The notes beneath the pieces were generated by a model. That model was not told the origin of the DNA. It searched no databases and saw only the letters and a program-made list of their open reading frames with translations. Of a DNA stretch of 64,000 bases, positions 2,442 through 60,085 are shown piece by piece. The position numbers and the translations under genes were made by a program. The stretch covers positions 288,380-352,379 of the forward strand of contig NZ_FRBS01000004.1 of NCBI RefSeq assembly GCF_900142675.1, written 5' to 3'. Positions within the stretch are counted from its first letter, which is position 1, and the number at the start of each line of letters is the position of its first letter. The stretch is from Shouchella rhizosphaerae. GTDB lineage: Bacteria; Bacillota; Bacilli; Bacillales; Bacillaceae_D.

Positions 2442-3140
2442 TCAGGCTACCGTATAGCGGGGCGTAGGCGCCTGTATAAGCGCTTGTGTCACGACATTTT
2501 GGTACAGCTCTTCCATATTGGCATCGATCTCCGCCTGCGTTTCTGGGGAGGCGATCACGCCGCCACTGGTCCAGCTGGCTACTTGGCTGACGACAGTCGT
2601 CAGTTCTTGCAAGGTGCTTTTTGCGCTTGCGAGCACCGTGTCGTTGGCTTCGTCCAAGTTGCCAAGCCTTTCCGCCGTTACACGGACATGGTCTTTGCCT
2701 TGTTGGGCGTAGCGAAGGATCGGTTCCATTGAGAACGGGGGCAGTGGCAATAGGTCGGCGATGGAAGCGCGAATCGACTTAATCGCTGTCGCGTCTGCGA
2801 TCGCATAGCGCTCGACTCGGTCTAGGCCGTTTTTGACATCGGCGAGAAATTCTTCCCGAATCAGGGCGGAGCTGCTTTCAAAGTTGAGCAGATTCGAGCG
2901 GATTTGCTTCAATTGTTCGATGTATTGGCCGATGAAAAGCTGGAACGCCGCCAATACAGGGAGATGGAGCGTCGCAAAATGGTCTTTGATTGCTTCGCCC
3001 CCTTCACCTTGCAGGGAATCAAGGTGGATGATCTTCTGGATGCTGGCCTGCAAGCGTTCGAGCTGGGCTTGATCGTGAAGCTTTCGTTCCACGATTTCGT
3101 CAAGTGCATCGAGTACTTCTTGTACGTCAAGTGTGTTCAT
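2442..3140 (-). CDS. LXG-domain toxin, N-terminal delivery half (frameshifted)
   Basis: This 232-residue frame begins at an ATG behind GAAAGGA and carries the helical LXG targeting domain used by the Firmicute type VII (ESX/Yuk) secretion system: MNTLDVQEVLDALDEI at the start and SLQGEGGEAIKDHF about residue 40. The frame ends in an aberrant APTPRYTVA tail, while the -1 frame from about 2490 gives AYTGAYAPLYGSLKAANWYY, which joins smoothly to the nuclease half at 2421. One missing base (or two extra ones) around 2470-2510 would explain this. So a single LXG toxin of about 575 residues has been split. It lies directly downstream of two small partner genes, as in yeeF/ywqJ-type loci. Confidence 0.8.
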   Translation of the reverse strand: MNTLDVQEVLDALDEIVERKLHDQAQLERLQASIQKIIHLDSLQGEGGEAIKDHFATLHLPVLAAFQLFIGQYIEQLKQIRSNLLNFESSSALIREEFLADVKNGLDRVERYAIADATAIKSIRASIADLLPLPPFSMEPILRYAQQGKDHVRVTAERLGNLDEANDTVLASAKSTLQELTTVVSQVASWTSGGVIASPETQAEIDANMEELYQNVVTQALIQAPTPRYTVA

Positions 3141-7671: not shown

Positions 7672-7756
7672 TCTTTTCCCTCCCTTGTCACTATTATCAT
7701 ACGCGTGCTGCTTCGTTATATCGATTCACTGCGGTCATAAAGTGCTTATCCCCTAC

Positions 7757-7770
7757 ATGACTTAAGTCAT
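7757..7770. promoter_or_regulatory. Perfect 14-bp palindrome, candidate response-regulator operator
   Basis: ATGACTTAAGTCAT is fully self-complementary and lies 86 bases upstream of the ATPase start in the only gap of the five-gene locus. NarL/LuxR-type regulators bind such inverted repeats as dimers. I infer it is the site through which the LnrK-like regulator switches on the exporter. Confidence 0.5.
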
Positions 7771-7789
7771 CTTTTTGGAGACAAGGGGC

Positions 7790-7834
7790 AACAAGCCGTG
7801 CTTATGCCCATTTCGGCTTTTTGCACGGCTTGTT
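7790..7834. other. Strong hairpin at end of response regulator gene
   Basis: AACAAGCCGTGC at 7790-7801 pairs perfectly with GCACGGCTTGTT at 7823-7834, overlapping the stop codon of the response regulator. No clear T run follows in the direction of transcription, so it may be an imperfect terminator or an mRNA-stabilising stem between the regulator and exporter genes. Confidence 0.5.
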
Positions 7835-8465
7835 AAATATCATGTTTGACTGCAAAAATGGCTAGCTGTGTCCGGTCACGCACCCCTAGTTTGATAAACA
7901 ATTGGCTAATGTAATTTTTAACTGTCCCTACACTTAAATAAAGTTCAGCAGCGATTTCCGCATTGTTGCGGCCCTGCCCCACTAGGCGAATGATCTCTTT
8001 TTCCCGCTCAGCTAAAGGTGGAATCTGTTCTTTCTCCTGCGGAGCTGAGTGCTGCAGAAGCTTTGGCATGACCTTTGCCGCCACTTGGCCATCTAAGACG
8101 AGTTCGCCTAAAAGTGCCTTTTCAATCGTAGCAAACAAACTTTCCATATCGGCATCTTTTAATATATAGCCCTTTGCTCCAGCTTTAAGTGCCTCAATCG
8201 CATAACGTTCATCAATAAACGTCGTTAACATAACGATTTTCACATTTGGATCCCGTTCAATCAGCCGCTTTGTCGCTTCAATGCCTGTCATCACAGGCAT
8301 ACGCACATCCATTAGCACAAGGTCAATGACATGGCGGCCAGCTAAATCAACAGCCTCTTGTCCATTCTCAGCTTCAATCACTTGATAACGTTGAGAATGC
8401 TCGATCATCATTTTCAAACCTTGGCGGACAATTTGTTGGTCTTCAGCTAAAAGAATCGTTTTCAA
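7833..8465 (-). CDS. NarL/LuxR-family response regulator (LnrK-like)
   Basis: This is a 210-residue cytosolic regulator. The receiver domain covers residues 2-120 with the phosphoacceptor Asp53 (LVLMDVRMP), acidic ED at 8-9, Thr of MLTTF and Lys in YILKD. A LuxR-type helix-turn-helix follows at about 148-205 (LAEREKEIIRLVGQGRNNAEIA, then VGTVKNYISQLFIKLGVRDRT). Its start lies inside the 3' end of the histidine kinase gene (23-base overlap), so the pair is translationally coupled. It should activate the downstream exporter operon, probably via the palindrome at 7757-7770. Confidence 0.85.
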   Translation of the reverse strand: MKTILLAEDQQIVRQGLKMMIEHSQRYQVIEAENGQEAVDLAGRHVIDLVLMDVRMPVMTGIEATKRLIERDPNVKIVMLTTFIDERYAIEALKAGAKGYILKDADMESLFATIEKALLGELVLDGQVAAKVMPKLLQHSAPQEKEQIPPLAEREKEIIRLVGQGRNNAEIAAELYLSVGTVKNYISQLFIKLGVRDRTQLAIFAVKHDI

Positions 8466-9555
8466 TTGCCGTCGTCCTTTCTATCGGAAAAGCACCTTCT
8501 ACTATAAACATCCCGTCTTCATTGCTTGCCCGAAACCAGCCATGCAACTGTTCAAATCGATTGCGCAACTGCGTCAGCCCAAATCCTTCACGAACCGCTT
8601 CTGGCTCTGCTTCATTTTTTAATGTCGCTACATACGTCCGTTTGCCGACAACTGCTAAGTGGACATCAATCTCTTTGGCATAAGAATGACGCATGGCATT
8701 CGTCAATCCTTCTTGGACAAATCGGTATAGCGCCACGTTCTGTTCCTCTGAGAGCGGCACAGACAGAGCTCCAGCTTCTGTTGTAAACGTGACGCGAACA
8801 TGGCCCTCTGCCTCTAACTTGCGAATGAGGCGAATAATCATCGCTACGCCCCGCTCTTCTTCACTTTCCAGTGCTCTAACTGCACTGCGCATTTCTGCGA
8901 GCGCTGTCCGGGCGGTTTGTTTTGCCTCTGCGATTACCGGATCTTGGACCTTCATCTCTGCGACTTGCAGCTGCATCATTAGCGCTGTAAGCTGATGGCC
9001 GACGGAGTCATGAACGTCTCTGGCAATCCGTGTACGTTCCCGCTGCTTCGCGGCATCTTCATGTTCAAGAAAACGGCGACGCAGTTGTTTCTGCTCGTAT
9101 TGGAGTTCATCTATTTTTTCTTGTTGCTGGCGGTTTTGCCTTTGCCATAAGGCAAATTGCCACATCATATAAAACAAAATAACCGTAGTCAGCAGCCAGA
9201 CAAACGTAGCCGCTATACCCGTTGGGCTACATAAAATCGACGCAGCCACTAAAGCGCTTGGCAAGGCGCTTGCCTGCCATTGTCCACTACTTGTTCGTGC
9301 AAATGGATAAACAGCCAGCAATATTGGCACGAGCCAAGCTGCGTCCATTCCAGCTAACAATATGTATACGCACGCTATGGCTGTCAGCAAACTATATAGC
9401 CACATGGGGCGCCGCCATAGCGGTTCTGAAAGCAGACCGCCTAATATCAATCCACTTGTGAGCCAAAACAGCGGGTCAACAAGTTGCGTCTTGTCACTGA
9501 GCGGCCAAATGACAATTCCTGCAAAAATAAAGGCAACGCGCACCCAATACGCCAC
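8443..9555 (-). CDS. HisKA_3 sensor histidine kinase (LnrJ-like)
   Basis: I prefer the GTG at 9555 (VAYWVRVAFIF) because TAGGAGG lies eight bases upstream; an in-frame GTG at 9564 sits too close to it. The 370-residue protein has five or six membrane helices in the first 135 residues and almost no extracytoplasmic domain, a coiled coil with the His box RIARDVHDSVGHQLTALMMQ (His about 182), and an HATPase domain with the N box LTNAMRHSYA and G box EGFGLTQLRNR. Such intramembrane-sensing kinases respond to membrane damage. It partners the overlapping response regulator. Confidence 0.83.
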   Translation of the reverse strand: MAYWVRVAFIFAGIVIWPLSDKTQLVDPLFWLTSGLILGGLLSEPLWRRPMWLYSLLTAIACVYILLAGMDAAWLVPILLAVYPFARTSSGQWQASALPSALVAASILCSPTGIAATFVWLLTTVILFYMMWQFALWQRQNRQQQEKIDELQYEQKQLRRRFLEHEDAAKQRERTRIARDVHDSVGHQLTALMMQLQVAEMKVQDPVIAEAKQTARTALAEMRSAVRALESEEERGVAMIIRLIRKLEAEGHVRVTFTTEAGALSVPLSEEQNVALYRFVQEGLTNAMRHSYAKEIDVHLAVVGKRTYVATLKNEAEPEAVREGFGLTQLRNRFEQLHGWFRASNEDGMFIVEGAFPIERTTAIENDSFS

Positions 9556-53621: not shown

Positions 53622-54117
53622 GAAGCCCCCTACTCCTGCCAAGTACAAAAAAGAGTATGAGTGGTTGAAAGAAGTAGATTCATTAGCGTTAGCGAACGCA
53701 CAACTTAATTTGAAGAAGGCATATAGAGCCTTCTTCAAAGGACGCACCAAGTTCCCAAAATTCAAAAGGAAGCGTCATAAACAAAGCTATACAACGAATA
53801 TCGTAAAAGGGAATATTCAATTGTTAGATGGTCATATCAAATCACCTAAAGTAAAAATGGGCAAAATCAGACAACATTGAGAAATCCCTTCAGCATACAA
53901 ACTCAAATCGTGCACGATTTCGATGACTTCATCAGATTCTTACAGAGTACGAGAAGGAGATTGAGAGTAAGGAAATGAAAAAAGTGGTTGGATTAGATTT
54001 TGCAATGAACGGGTTATTTGTCGATAGCGAAGGGAAGAAAGCCAATCACCCACGTTTCTATCGTCAAATGCTGGATCGATTAGCAAAAGAACAACGCAAA
54101 CTATCATCCCCTATAAC
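53622..54117 (+). pseudogene. IS605-family TnpB (OrfB) remnant
   Basis: The plus strand shows KYKKEYEWLKEVDSLALANA, QLNLKKAYRAFFKGRTKFPKFKRKR and TTNIVKGNIQLL, then a frame break at a TGA (53878), and in another frame EMKKVVGLDFAMNGLFVDSEGKK, which includes the first RuvC Asp (GLDFAMNG) of TnpB. The N-terminus, the remaining RuvC parts and the zinc ribbon are missing. It is a decayed fragment of the RNA-guided nuclease family with no intact copy or tnpA nearby. Confidence 0.8.
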
Positions 54118-54289
54118 AACTTGAGACAGTAGCCTCAAAAGATACTATGTTTATCCATTAAAGCTCTCCCCCCTAGAGTCTTATTTATAGTTCCTAGTAC
54201 TTCCAATTCAAAAATAGCCTTTAAATTAAACCATTATACGACTGAACGGAAATTATTCTACTTAAAAATAGTCTATTTTTAAGAAATGC

Positions 54290-54379: not shown

Positions 54380-55492
54380 GTGGCTGTTGAACAAGTGAGA
54401 GGTTTTGTGCAAAATGACGGAAATTTTTGTCAGTTAGATTTGCAAGACAAAAATTTTAATGGCCCTATTATGAGAATTGAAACCTTCAGGTGCAGTCAAC
54501 CAGAAGGAGAATACGGGGTAACTGGCGCTGGAACTAAGGTAAAAGATTTAGCCGGCATTGATCACTTAACTCCAGAGAGTAATAGGATTTTCCGTCATGT
54601 ATTCTCAGTAGGCTACGATCCAACAAAGCTAAAAGCTACACTTGAAATACGCGAAACCTTCACTGAATCCGGGAAGTGGGAAATAAGAACAAGAGATCTT
54701 GATCCCGAAAGCGCAAGTTTTGGAACTATTTTACTTGCTTACATCTCACCGGTCGAAAATAATGTTTATCACCTCAGATACGAACTCCTAACTAAACCAT
54801 CTGTAACCCCCATCTTAGTAAGCTCACCACTAACTGCTTCTATAACTGAAATTGCAAAAGGCTTGCCAGACATTGGATCTCCTGTAGAAGAATTAGGTGA
54901 AATTGATACCCAATTTAATGGAAACCCGTTAGACGGGCTAATAAATTGGACAACAGAGTCTCAAAAAGCGCAAGAACTATTTAAAAACTTTTCCGCTATT
55001 TTTCAGAAAGCCCCGTTCACTCAATGGACAGAAAATGTGAAAGTCTACGAACGAATGGGCGATTTTAGGGATAAATGCATCCATCCAGGCACAAATCTAA
55101 CTGGTCCACATAGACAATTGGCTTCCGAATTTGTCATGATTCGTGCATACCGCTCTTCCCTAACAGGACTCGCTCCGGTTTTTGATGCCGATATGGCTAA
55201 AGGGGCAGAAGATTTGTGGGACAGCCAAGACCCACTTTCTATTGATACAAAGCCAGGAGTGTATACTGTGTTTCTGAGCGCTTACATTTTAAATGTGGGT
55301 ATTCATAAATTAGGCTTGGATAAAGTTCACAGCGACTACGGTGGAGTACCAATGAAGCTTGCTCCTGGAAGTAAATTAGAAACAGGAATTAATCCAATTG
55401 TCGATAGTAGGAGAGCCAACCAGACAATTGCAGAGATTGCATACGCGCTCTTTTTATCTCCTACCGCTCACAAAGAGAAAGTACTTTTATAA
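54380..55492 (+). CDS. Unknown 370-residue protein
   Basis: GTG start behind AGGAGGAGATT. No family is recognised. The N-terminal half (1-150) alternates short charged and hydrophobic segments suggestive of beta structure; the C-terminal half is helical (PLDGLINWTTESQKAQELFKNFSAIF, HRQLASEFVMIRAYRSSLTGL, TVFLSAYILNVGIHKLGLDKV). There is no signal peptide or membrane helix, so it is cytosolic. It is followed after 64 bases by an MFS exporter under the same consensus promoter, so synthesis or modification of an exported small molecule is possible, but this is a guess from context. Base composition is AT-richer than the core genes, suggesting acquisition. Confidence 0.6.
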   Translation: MAVEQVRGFVQNDGNFCQLDLQDKNFNGPIMRIETFRCSQPEGEYGVTGAGTKVKDLAGIDHLTPESNRIFRHVFSVGYDPTKLKATLEIRETFTESGKWEIRTRDLDPESASFGTILLAYISPVENNVYHLRYELLTKPSVTPILVSSPLTASITEIAKGLPDIGSPVEELGEIDTQFNGNPLDGLINWTTESQKAQELFKNFSAIFQKAPFTQWTENVKVYERMGDFRDKCIHPGTNLTGPHRQLASEFVMIRAYRSSLTGLAPVFDADMAKGAEDLWDSQDPLSIDTKPGVYTVFLSAYILNVGIHKLGLDKVHSDYGGVPMKLAPGSKLETGINPIVDSRRANQTIAEIAYALFLSPTAHKEKVLL

Positions 55493-56890: not shown

Positions 56891-57100
56891 TATTTCGATT
56901 GCCGTCTGATGGAGTGTTTTTAATGTGTGTTTTAATGCCCACACAGCCCCTTCACCCAAAGCACTTCTTTCCACTTCCATTTAAACAAACTTTTTTCCCT
57001 ATCAAAAGACAAAAAGCAACTGTATTCCTCGTTTTTTCTTCAGAAACGACAAAAATTAACTAGCTGCGTATTGGGAAAATCAAAAATTAGCAGAAAGTTG

Positions 57101-57129
57101 TTGATTTGTGTCATTTGCTGTACTATCCT
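57101..57129 (+). promoter_or_regulatory. Candidate promoter of the AimR-like gene
   Basis: TTGATT at 57101 and TATCCT at 57124 are 17 bases apart, just upstream of the AAAGGAGGGG ribosome site. Confidence 0.5.
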
Positions 57130-57163
57130 TTAAATAAGCCCAACCACAAAAGGAGGGGAAAAC

Positions 57164-58249
57164 ATTCAACAACCTGTAGTTGCAATTGCCAATAGCGGTG
57201 TATTGCAGAAAGAACAAATTACAGAACAATTGATGAAAGACCTCGCAAACAACCATCCAGAACTTTCATTTGAACAAGTGTTGACAATGGTGAAAAAAAC
57301 GCTGCCGAATGATTACGTTCCTTTAATGAATATTTACGCCTTACACGTTAAAAAACTCCGTCATGTGCAAGATGCATTTGAGTATGCGAATTTGTTTAGG
57401 CAAGTTGACACATTAGGAGAAATGATCCAGATCCATGAAAATGACGATTTATTACATGAATGGGTCAAAGTCTATCGGTTCTTCTATGATTTTTTGCCCC
57501 ATTTAAAAACCGATGATGTTTTGATCCGTAATATCCGAAATTTATTCGGCTTAGTCGAACATCCCCAATTGCGAATGAGATTAGAAATTGCTGAACTAAA
57601 TTATTTTGACATTCACGGGAGCATCAATAATTTAACACCCATGATGAAACAATTTAAAGAACAATTTAAAACGATGCCTAGTGGATTTTTCAAAAGTGCA
57701 CTTGCAGCACGGGTGACTTTGCTTGCAGGCAATGCTAGCTTATTCGGCGATGGAGACTATGAGGAAGCAGAACGTTGTTATTTAGCCGCCACAGTAATAG
57801 AGGCCATTCCCGATGTACTTCTGGTCACTGCTTATCATGGCCTTGGGCTTGTGTATTTAAAAGACAACAAGCAACAATGCTTAGATGCACATCAAAAAGC
57901 TCTTTTTTACGCACAACGCTCTAAGTTGGATCATTATCATCAGAACTTGGAATATGACGATATCCCGTTTGTTAAAAATATGCTCGGCGAAATTTTCGAC
58001 ATTGATCATGTGATACCGAAAGAACAAGCACATCAATATGTGGTTAGGGGCGAAACTCGAAAAGCTTTAGAAATCATTTCCCAACTAGAGACGCCTGGAA
58101 AAAAAGACGCACATTTGCTGTTTTACAAAGCAAAAGCACTTAAAAGTATTCCCTTGTTTTTCGAGGCGATTAAAGCTTTTTCATCTGAAGGATACACCCA
58201 TATGATTGGATTTGCGGAAAAAGAAATTAAAAAAATCAAATTTTTTTAA
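57164..58249 (+). CDS. AimR/Rap-like TPR peptide-pheromone receptor
   Basis: The protein is all-helical and resembles AimR, the arbitrium receptor of Bacillus phages: FEQVLTMVKKTLPNDYVPLMNIYALHV near the start, DAFEYANLFRQVDTLGEMI, AALAARVTLLAGNASLFGDGDYEEAERCYLAA repeats, and a closing AHQYVVRGETRKALEIISQ segment followed by LLFYKAKALKS. The N-terminal helix-turn-helix of AimR is missing. AAAGGAGGGG is followed six bases later by ATT (57164) and no ATG or GTG lies in frame before; the first TTG (57203) has no ribosome site, so an ATT start (361 residues) is inferred. The next gene encodes a secreted pheromone precursor. Confidence 0.75.
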   Translation: MQQPVVAIANSGVLQKEQITEQLMKDLANNHPELSFEQVLTMVKKTLPNDYVPLMNIYALHVKKLRHVQDAFEYANLFRQVDTLGEMIQIHENDDLLHEWVKVYRFFYDFLPHLKTDDVLIRNIRNLFGLVEHPQLRMRLEIAELNYFDIHGSINNLTPMMKQFKEQFKTMPSGFFKSALAARVTLLAGNASLFGDGDYEEAERCYLAATVIEAIPDVLLVTAYHGLGLVYLKDNKQQCLDAHQKALFYAQRSKLDHYHQNLEYDDIPFVKNMLGEIFDIDHVIPKEQAHQYVVRGETRKALEIISQLETPGKKDAHLLFYKAKALKSIPLFFEAIKAFSSEGYTHMIGFAEKEIKKIKFF

Positions 58250-58265
58250 GAAGGAGTTAATTTAC

Positions 58266-58388
58266 ATGAAAAAATGGTTCGTAGTATCTTCAACTCTCGT
58301 CGTTCTTTTTTCCTTTTCCCTTGGATCATTTACTACTGAACAAAGCTCTGAAATTACCACACAAGCTAAACCAGGACAACTCCTTTAA
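58266..58388 (+). CDS. Phr/AimP-like exported pheromone precursor (40 aa)
   Basis: ATG 17 bases after the receptor stop, behind AAGAAGGAG. The product has a Sec signal (MKKWFVVSSTLVVLFSFSLG) and a short polar tail ending ITTQAKPGQLL. Precursors of this size directly downstream of a TPR receptor are the hallmark of RRNPPA quorum sensing; the last five to eight residues (for example KPGQLL) would be released and re-imported by the oligopeptide permease to bind the receptor. The exact mature peptide cannot be read from sequence. A terminator follows at once. Confidence 0.75.
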   Translation: MKKWFVVSSTLVVLFSFSLGSFTTEQSSEITTQAKPGQLL

Positions 58389-58397
58389 AACTCTGTG

Positions 58398-58427
58398 CCC
58401 CAAACCTTCTTCAAGGCTTGGGGTTTC
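58398..58427 (+). terminator. Terminator of receptor/peptide operon
   Basis: CCCCAAACC pairs with GGCTTGGGG (one mismatch) across an eight-base loop, then TTTC. Confidence 0.7.
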
Positions 58428-58436
58428 TATTCGTTT

Positions 58437-59006
58437 TCACACCAACCAAAACCGCTTCTTTTCCTTAAATCGTTCACCATAGTCTGTCTCTCCTTGCAAG
58501 GCTGCCTCTTCCGTGGGAATCCGGATCATCAGCATGACCGCATTTAATAGACTAAACACAATAGCCGTCCAATACGCTTGAAACAGCAATGGGACAAACG
58601 CGATTTCTGCTACTACGACCATGTAATTAGGGTGGCGCAAAAAGCGATAGGGCCCTTTTTCGATGACTGGTGCTTCTGGCAACACGATGATTTTCGTGTT
58701 CCAATATTTCCCGAGTGAAGCAAGCGCCCAGATACGTATGATTTGGGCAATGACGACAACCGTAAGGGGAATCCCGCTCCAACGTGAAAACCCTGCATTG
58801 GATACGGTTACTTCGATCAGCAACGAAATGAAAAATCCACAATGGAGCGCGACCATCCACGGATAGTGGGCCGTTCCCACTTCAACGCCCCCTTGTGCTT
58901 TCAGCCAACGTTCGTTTCGTCGCGCTACCCTGACTTCCACGAGGCGTTGGATGATAATCAGTGCCATCATAATATAGGCCCACGTCAATGGAGGCCACCT
59001 GCCCAT
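58437..59006 (-). CDS. bpsB: Isoprenylcysteine methyltransferase-like alkylpyrone O-methyltransferase (BpsB/YpbQ-like)
   Basis: The 189-residue membrane protein has four to five helices and the ICMT/PEMT SAM-binding motif GPYRFLRHPNYMVV, with EEAALQGETDYGERFKEKKRF at the C-terminus. In Bacillus subtilis the equivalent YpbQ (BpsB) methylates alkylpyrones made by the adjacent type III polyketide synthase. It overlaps that gene by 22 bases if it starts at ATG 59006; an internal start near MMALIIIQRLVEV is possible. Confidence 0.82.
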   Translation of the reverse strand: MGRWPPLTWAYIMMALIIIQRLVEVRVARRNERWLKAQGGVEVGTAHYPWMVALHCGFFISLLIEVTVSNAGFSRWSGIPLTVVVIAQIIRIWALASLGKYWNTKIIVLPEAPVIEKGPYRFLRHPNYMVVVAEIAFVPLLFQAYWTAIVFSLLNAVMLMIRIPTEEAALQGETDYGERFKEKKRFWLV

Positions 59007-60085
59007 TCAAGCACTAACATTTCTGAACAAAATCCAGGGCCGAGCGCCGCAACGAGGCCGACATCGCCGTGCTTATGCGTTTCTTCCATTGATTCCTTTA
59101 GCACGTAAAGGACAGTGGGGGAAGACATATTGCCGTGCTCTTTTAACACTTTGCGGGAAAGCATTGTCATTTCTTCTGGAAACCCTAGTGCTTTTTCATA
59201 CGCTTCCAACACTTTTTTTCCGCCAGGATGGGCGATAAAAGCATTGATCTCCCCGATCTCTTTCCCTTCTTGGCGAAGGAGCTCCTCAACGTTCGGCTTC
59301 AGCCATTGGGCGACTAATGTTGGAATATGCCTTGAAAAGATAACATTTAAGCCATTGTCCCGGACATCCCAGCCCATGACGTCTTCTGAATCGGGCATCA
59401 GTACCGATTGGGTCGCACGGATTACTGGGCGGTAGGCTTGGGCGGCGTCTGCGAGCAGTGGCGAGGCATGCCCAGCGACAAGGGCACATGCGACACCATC
59501 AGCAAAAAGGGACGTGCCGATTAAATTGCTTTTCGATTGGTCTTCTTTTTGGAAAGTTAGTCCGCATAGCTCGGCGCAGACGACTAAAACCGCTGTTTTC
59601 GGGTGGGCGAGGCAATAGTCGTAAGCACGGCTTAAGCCCGCAGCTCCTCCCGCGCAGCCAAGTCCCCAAATAGGCAACCGTTTTGTTTCGGGGCGAAAAG
59701 GCAGTTTGTTCATGATGCGAGCGTCTATCGATGGCGTTGCCATACCTGACGAGGACACAAAAATAATCGCATCGATTTCTTCGGGAGCGATTGTTCTTGA
59801 TACAAAATGGCCATTTGCCAAGCAGCTTTTTACTGCTTCTACACTATAGTCCGTTGCTTTTTCAATGAAGAGGTCGTTCCGCTCTCCTAGACGGTGGCTT
59901 GTTTGGAACCAATCCAACGGCACGGAAAAATGGCGCTTTTCAATTTCCCCATTGGCAAAAACGTTTAATAACCGTTCGATGTCAGAAAAACTTTCAGCGA
60001 ATAATTCCCGGGCAAATTCCACTGTCTGTTCCTGTTTGATTGGATGGGGTGGATCATATGTACTAACTGATAAAATCGTAGGCAC
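58985..60085 (-). CDS. bpsA: Type III polyketide synthase (BpsA-like)
   Basis: The 366-residue enzyme belongs to the chalcone/stilbene synthase family. The catalytic Cys144 lies in WGLGCAGGAAGLSRAYD, the His in AFIAHPGGKKVLEAYE and the Asn in KEHGNMSSPTVLYVL, completing the triad. Bacterial BpsA condenses long-chain acyl-CoA with malonyl-CoA to triketide pyrones that the following methyltransferase caps. The pyrones accumulate in the membrane. ATG start; the MerR-type regulator diverges upstream. Confidence 0.92.
   Translation of the reverse strand: MPTILSVSTYDPPHPIKQEQTVEFARELFAESFSDIERLLNVFANGEIEKRHFSVPLDWFQTSHRLGERNDLFIEKATDYSVEAVKSCLANGHFVSRTIAPEEIDAIIFVSSSGMATPSIDARIMNKLPFRPETKRLPIWGLGCAGGAAGLSRAYDYCLAHPKTAVLVVCAELCGLTFQKEDQSKSNLIGTSLFADGVACALVAGHASPLLADAAQAYRPVIRATQSVLMPDSEDVMGWDVRDNGLNVIFSRHIPTLVAQWLKPNVEELLRQEGKEIGEINAFIAHPGGKKVLEAYEKALGFPEEMTMLSRKVLKEHGNMSSPTVLYVLKESMEETHKHGDVGLVAALGPGFCSEMLVLEWAGGLH

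Follow-up and report, generated by a model that had tools for sequence, protein, structure and literature searches.

The stretch of DNA analyzed here (hereafter the window: 64,000 nucleotides of Shouchella rhizosphaerae contig NZ_FRBS01000004.1, C8:288380-352379) belongs to a 4.24 Mb genome of a Shouchella near the clausii complex, with S. clausii AKU0647 and S. tritolerans as relatives at 96% protein identity. It carries a gene for a receptor of the AimR family, directly followed by a short gene for a putative secreted pheromone precursor. Receptors of this family that lack an intact N-terminal helix-turn-helix (HTH) DNA-binding head are referred to as headless. The features of the locus are as follows:

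57069..57080, + strand: conserved element TATTGGGAAAAT, also found before paralogue and phage-type AimR genes
57098..57126, + strand: possible weak sigma-A promoter TTGTTG-17-TACTAT, read from the sequence and matching 7/12 consensus positions
57149..57158, + strand: receptor ribosome-binding site AAAGGAGGGG, read from the sequence
57164..58249, + strand: headless AimR-family pheromone receptor, 361 amino acids (aa), ATT start
58266..58388, + strand: pheromone precursor, 40 aa, C-terminus ITTQAKPGQLL
58368..58385, + strand: codons for KPGQLL (or AKPGQLL), the presumed mature pheromone, placed by analogy with the repeat units of paralogue precursors
58397..58424, + strand: hairpin resembling a terminator, located in the gap between the precursor and convergent methyltransferase genes
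58437..60085, - strand: ICMT-type methyltransferase (58437-59006) and type III polyketide synthase (PKS; 58985-60085), assigned by Pfam

Membership of the receptor in the AimR family, as proposed in an earlier note on this DNA, is borne out by two profiles, NCBIfam AimR (NF038310; 120.5 bits, curated cut-off 70) and PF22871 (67.2 bits, cut-off 26.7), with no unrelated tetratricopeptide repeat (TPR) family being obtained, and neither Pfam nor NCBIfam yielded a Rap profile match up to an E value of 1. Structure comparison of the predicted receptor (the window model) returned a TPR superhelix of the AimR type. With regard to the N-terminal three-helix bundle of Rap, the pairing of Rap chains with the model begins at model residues 54-82. 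Five bases separate AAAGGAGGGG from the ATT start, and the alternative start TTG at 57203 has, by eye, no clear ribosome site; the choice between the two hardly matters for the HTH question because residues 1-6 and 8-11 were modelled at a predicted local distance difference test (pLDDT) score below 50. The sigma-A-like promoter is missing from the promoter-scan output.

The adjacent precursor gene was present as had been described, with its 40-aa product ending in KPGQLL, the spacing to the receptor gene being 16 bases rather than 17. Its product has a basic start and a hydrophobic core, and was judged by this composition to be of a secreted type. Three other genomes, G001, G010 and G011 (five loci, two pairs of which are the same record), have the same KPGQLL end, two of these genomes carrying silent changes and changes in the signal part of the precursor and the third a single silent change; the precursor of a more distant orthologue (G006 and G008; loci L078 and L080) ends in NNKPEQT. 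Several paralogue precursors contain repeated units from which the likely mature peptide can be read, among them GPNQPIIE/GPNQPIIE/GPTQPIIN, two copies of GPTQPGT and two of GPTNPPVD. At L103, the precursor following a phage-type AimR gene (7718-8842, - strand) likewise shows a threefold pheromone repeat (GPNQPII, GPNQPII, GPTQPII). As for the terminator proposed to follow the precursor gene, a hairpin is indeed found at 58397-58424 (-15.2 kcal/mol, z -3.1, 1/200 shuffles equally good), yet its T tract is weak and it is unlisted by the strict terminator scan.

A precursor-like gene, defined as having a ribosome site, a basic start and a hydrophobic core, and as beginning -25 to +90 nt from the receptor stop, follows 26/37 headless and 6/10 HTH-bearing receptors, compared with 6/434 other open reading frames (ORFs; 200 aa or longer) from these loci; this count covers 47 of 50 receptors (three being without a context locus) and includes orthologues. 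A looser filter recovers precursors at some of the receptors missed by the strict one. A precursor gene beside headless AimRs is thus commoner than chance.

In the available text of PMC6458997, the HTH domain of the SPbeta AimR is assigned to residues 1-59 and to four helices, the fourth of which is part of the first repeat. In the window, an in-frame stop codon lies 30 nt 5' of the receptor start, as it does in two orthologues (15 nt in the distant orthologue), and these stops directly upstream speak against an overlooked N-terminal HTH segment in the receptor frame. According to the sequence alignment the second HTH helix is gone. The window model contains a helix at residues 2-11 that mostly scores below a pLDDT of 50 and a confident one at 21-30; a further 18 helices follow, starting at residue 36. 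A control, the AimR encoded on a provirus contig (L110), shows helices at 9-26, 30-37 and 41-49 followed by 18 helices, with a pLDDT of 85-92 over residues 11-60, and its pairing with several full-length AimR chains starts as early as residue 0-3; it was modelled from 8 sequences, all of which are also in the alignment of the window receptor. The head region therefore comprises one confident and one low-confidence helix in the window model, against three confident helices in the control. The presence of an HTH was called throughout by reading alignments and not by a profile, Pfam giving no HTH family even for the control. Profiles, alignment and the comparison of models agree in that the receptor possesses no intact DNA-binding head, as had been noted.

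The type III PKS gene is present in 13/13 Shouchella genomes (its frame being broken in G008) and is adjoined by the receptor gene in six of them (G000, G001, G006, G008, G010 and G011). Both the PKS and the methyltransferase gene are convergent to the pair and serve as a synteny marker outside the pair itself; the orthologue in G006 and G008, at 55-57% identity, is likewise located beside the PKS gene. The gene for a major facilitator superfamily protein upstream of the receptor is shared by 4 genomes only. Pairwise dN/dS values between three receptor orthologues of the clausii complex range from 0.11 to 0.25, and the receptor gene is under purifying selection. Because of the PKS-side synteny in 6/13 genomes and this selection, the pair is no relic; the earlier note's suggestion of a remnant, if a relic is meant, is not upheld for a pair that is kept across species and forms part of an expanded headless clade.

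The absence of phage genes nearby, also claimed earlier, was confirmed: at a threshold of 1e-5, no PHROG for structural, integrase or lysis functions was hit by any of 10 neighbourhood proteins, and Phage_portal, the sole phage marker family searched genome-wide, has no match in the window's genome. Together with the PKS-side synteny in six genomes, these results oppose a prophage or mobile-element location of the pair, which was rejected. Phage and plasmid collections searched by tblastn with the receptor gave no match; one provirus receptor likewise had none when it was scanned against viral contigs or when its locus was used in a megablast. All 6 distinct AimR relatives found in IMG/VR bear an HTH by eye; no headless AimR was found there in short-pattern scans, which makes this weak evidence. 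A clean split between host and phage receptors is contradicted by the headless paralogue G004_C6_65229, located 22 kb from a portal gene. A neighbour scan covered 98/160 ORFs on the headless side (none from the window), 53/53 on the HTH-bearing side and ten G004 neighbours singly. Four of the 53 HTH-side neighbours match FtsK/SpoIIIE and one matches Replic_Relax, and some HTH-bearing receptors may therefore sit on conjugative elements rather than phages.

Relatives of the receptor above the cut-off occur in 13/13 Shouchella genomes (53 matches at 1e-10, 1-15 per genome), in 7/28 genomes of other genera of the same family and in 80 genomes (five of them Shouchella) from an order sample of 397. 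The window's genome holds three further relatives, all four being without HTH by eye. In the tree of Shouchella receptors a headless group of 37 rows is obtained with a Shimodaira-Hasegawa-like approximate likelihood ratio (SH-aLRT) of 98, and in an order-level tree a headless Shouchella clade of 35 rows (support 90/92) has as its sister group the HTH-bearing AimRs of Shouchella. These comprise 12 rows in the genus tree (one apart from the other 11) and 11 rows (95/84) in the order-level tree, and their clade is linked to proviruses or other mobile elements; this topology is compatible with a descent of the window receptor from a phage receptor. On this order-level tree, which was built free of the head, three changes of HTH state are seen by eye, well-supported branches forcing at least three; these changes may represent losses. 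Its order rows are the best-scoring loci of that sample, and the tree has LuxR tails cut and the truncated rows x_L062, G002_C1_895359 and G005_C1_3348608 omitted. In other genera, AimR relatives without HTH by eye were seen at the order-level loci L040-L043, L048, L056, L061 and L063-L065, and DPG-type precursors at some headless order-level loci (L040-L043 and L048).

From what was observed, i.e. the genes, the predicted fold, the absence of an intact HTH, the conservation, the purifying selection and the expansion of paralogues, we consider it somewhat more probable than not, and the best explanation, that this conserved chromosomal pheromone-receptor pair of Shouchella functions as a peptide-gated, Rap-like protein-contact switch. 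Since the receptor is without an intact N-terminal HTH, protein contact is its most likely mode of action. In such a scheme the precursor of 40 aa would leave the cell via Sec and be trimmed to its last ~6-7 residues, (A)KPGQLL; the mature peptide would be re-imported by an oligopeptide permease and bound in the groove of the AimR-fold TPR receptor, where it would gate contact of the receptor with a protein partner, as in Rap-Phr, the output being carried by that partner.

Several points weigh against the protein-contact switch, the case for which is built on sequence and predicted structure. ATT is rare as a start codon, and the window model rests on 9 sequences. Untrimmed structural alignment pairs this model with full-length AimR from AimR residue 9, which suggests that part of the head region may be retained; this tells slightly against the protein-contact switch and in favour of residual DNA binding. 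Trimmed alignment rows starting from AimR residue 41-45 correspond to chains of 342-350 residues and are uninformative on the head. Of the positions at which the SPbeta AimR contacts its peptide (N202, R228, T236 and D360 in the available text of PMC6458997), only N202 is kept in the window receptor, the other three being V, G and Y; the pheromone differs as well, and the alignment is uncertain at ~18% identity. Finally, the 98 scanned neighbours of other headless receptors include two endolysin-type matches, one HNH endonuclease and one Mu Gam-like PHROG.

The rival explanations are, in falling order, a split receptor, residual DNA binding, an anti-phage decoy and decay. The first, to which we assign a minor share of probability, holds that the headless AimR senses the pheromone and acts via a separate DNA-binding subunit with a LuxR/GerE head, which could be an AimR-LuxR hybrid or else a GerE protein standing by itself, much as RapF binds ComA. 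In its favour is genome G004, in which three headless AimRs end in a GerE domain (44.2, 53.8 and 34.6 bits) and have no precursor gene beside them by the strict filter, and in which a shorter protein (NCBIfam AimR 43 bits, below the cut-off) is encoded divergently to a headless AimR that does have a precursor gene:

L075:6760-8172, + strand: headless AimR with C-terminal LuxR/GerE HTH
L072:7570-9018, - strand: headless AimR with C-terminal LuxR/GerE HTH
L068:4854-6287, + strand: headless AimR with C-terminal LuxR/GerE HTH
L067:12221-12970, - strand: 250-aa protein, AimR-like in its N-terminal half and equipped with a GerE domain

By Rosetta-stone logic these fusions make LuxR-type (GerE) proteins candidate partners of headless AimRs, and suggest that the partners are DNA-binding proteins of this type. 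However, G004 is very unlike the window's genome (2.6 Mb, with 15 AimR copies), and in the latter no AimR-GerE hybrid is present, its 8 GerE matches lying in frames of 107-253 aa and the nearest of these ~49 kb from the pair. The neighbour tallies, each covering its 25 first-listed families (out of 48, 126 and 51), revealed no common partner gene.

That the receptor still binds DNA, via another surface or a degenerate HTH, appears less probable again. Helices 21-30 and 36-46 of the window model coincide in position with the third and fourth helices of AimR, the untrimmed alignments described above argue for a head region that is partly left, and TPR residues of the SPbeta AimR also touch the DNA backbone, according to the available text of PMC6458997. 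Nevertheless, one of three head helices is gone and another scores below a pLDDT of 50, and the DNA-reading residues N30, N32 and Y35 of the SPbeta AimR are T, Q and K in the window receptor, although these positions differ in HTH-bearing relatives too.

It is quite improbable that the headless AimR represents a host decoy, pairing with an incoming phage AimR and thereby spoiling its DNA binding. Phage AimR dimerises via C-terminal repeats (PMC6458997, available text), a part kept here, other Shouchella genomes hold HTH-bearing AimRs, and TATTGGGAAAAT is common to the upstream regions of host and phage-type genes; yet most headless receptors have a precursor gene of their own, which a decoy would not need. 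A decaying prophage remnant, to which the sister relationship with provirus-linked HTH-bearing AimRs and a transposase-like fragment (by eye) at 53975-54124 might point, is largely refuted by the dN/dS values, the synteny across species, the 15 copies in one genome and the open signal gene, and hardly merits further consideration.

The arbitrium AimR-AimP system of SPbeta-group phages resembles the window pair in the AimR profile match, in the AimR-like TPR fold and in the short precursor gene directly after the receptor gene, as in phage Goe11. It differs in that the window pair is on the host chromosome, its receptor lacks an intact HTH and has three of four peptide-contact positions changed, its presumed pheromone is KPGQLL as opposed to a peptide ending in RGA, and no aimX-like target was seen. 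With Rap-Phr of Bacillus the pair shares the lack of an intact DNA-binding head, the peptide pair and possibly action by protein contact. Chromosomal AimR-branch systems of Alkalihalobacilli are already in print: a 'subfamily 21' branches within AimR in the sequence tree, and loss of the HTH is named for Rap and subfamily 17, as far as the available text of PMC12700828 goes, such subfamilies having been defined by RRNPP_detector (PMC10075063, in its accessible part). Subfamily 21 is alike in being chromosomal and in branching within AimR; by this description the window locus is a possible member, and S. clausii is also filed under the genus name Alkalihalobacillus. The chromosomal AimR 'eavesdroppers' of PMC9765709 are likewise outside prophages, 87% of AimR hits being on mobile elements; in the accessible part of that paper 11% of 'Other' AimRs have a propeptide candidate, in contrast to the 26/37 headless Shouchella receptors followed by a precursor-like gene. 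Among the matches listed in the open-access literature, the loss of the head, the LuxR refit and the shared TATTGGGAAAAT element are unreported.

Arbitrium has been described as a decision system of phages, and its receptor is here a standing part of a bacterial genus. The three or more changes of HTH state parallel the HTH loss that founded Rap, and in G004 a LuxR head is found at the opposite end. On a bolder and rather unlikely reading, the arbitrium receptor would have been turned into a modular host signalling family, composed of headless sensors with separate or newly attached LuxR-type heads. Shouchella offers a direct setting to test shifts of RRNPPA receptors between DNA-binding and protein-contact modes, as well as the sharing of a regulator by host and phage receptors; for S. 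clausii, a tool for genome editing has been reported (PMC12885165).

With regard to such sharing, the 12-mer TATTGGGAAAAT is located 95 bp before the receptor start; in G006 the distant orthologue has it at an equal distance. It also precedes some paralogues and HTH-bearing receptors, in which cases it occupies the opposite strand. The 13 Shouchella genomes contain 51 copies, of which 15 fall in the 350 bp upstream of an AimR match (0.02 expected) and 36 are away from any AimR, some at a conserved intergenic place. The exact element is present in 14/47 AimR upstream regions and in 8/41 when the window receptor and five orthologues are excluded, four of these eight belonging to HTH-bearing receptors; as it was first spotted in AimR upstream regions, a selection effect acts on the counts and 8/41 is the fairer figure. 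Its single copy within the window is no more than chance (0.88 expected; 63/100 shuffles have one), and 0/15 AimR copies in G004 have it. That one regulator reads TATTGGGAAAAT before both host and phage-type receptor genes, and so links host quorum sensing to prophage arbitrium, forms part of the same bolder and rather unlikely reading as the modular host family. A protein that is Rap-like by eye lies directly beside a copy at L127 (316-1491, - strand) and has no NCBIfam match at 1e-5. TTCGACA/TTCCGACA sites reminiscent of Spo0A boxes occur upstream of HTH-bearing AimRs at L095, L096, L098, L099 and L102.

A gene with an LXG domain is found within 10 kb at 8/50 AimR loci (1.4 expected; 1/20,000 simulations as high), a count that drops 3/53 partial AimR and 2/52 partial LXG matches and in which orthologous loci are non-independent. 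Because of this non-independence, and because the nearest LXG gene is 54 kb from the window receptor, a link to LXG was set aside as an explanation of the pair. Headless AimRs near LXG-domain genes were seen at L008 (6744-10568), L086, L069 and L009, the two genes at L008 being divergent with 1.3 kb between the matches. In the window itself, the 370-aa gene at 54380-55492 (+ strand), downstream of the transposase-like fragment, has no match in Pfam, NCBIfam or PHROG and is present in 1/13 Shouchella genomes, the window's own. At the left edge of the window, a short ORF with an LXG domain (2442-3140, - strand) is located close to the toxin-like cassettes of L009 (~14-19 kb), which lie to the left of the window and one of which includes a CdiA-CT RNase A domain.
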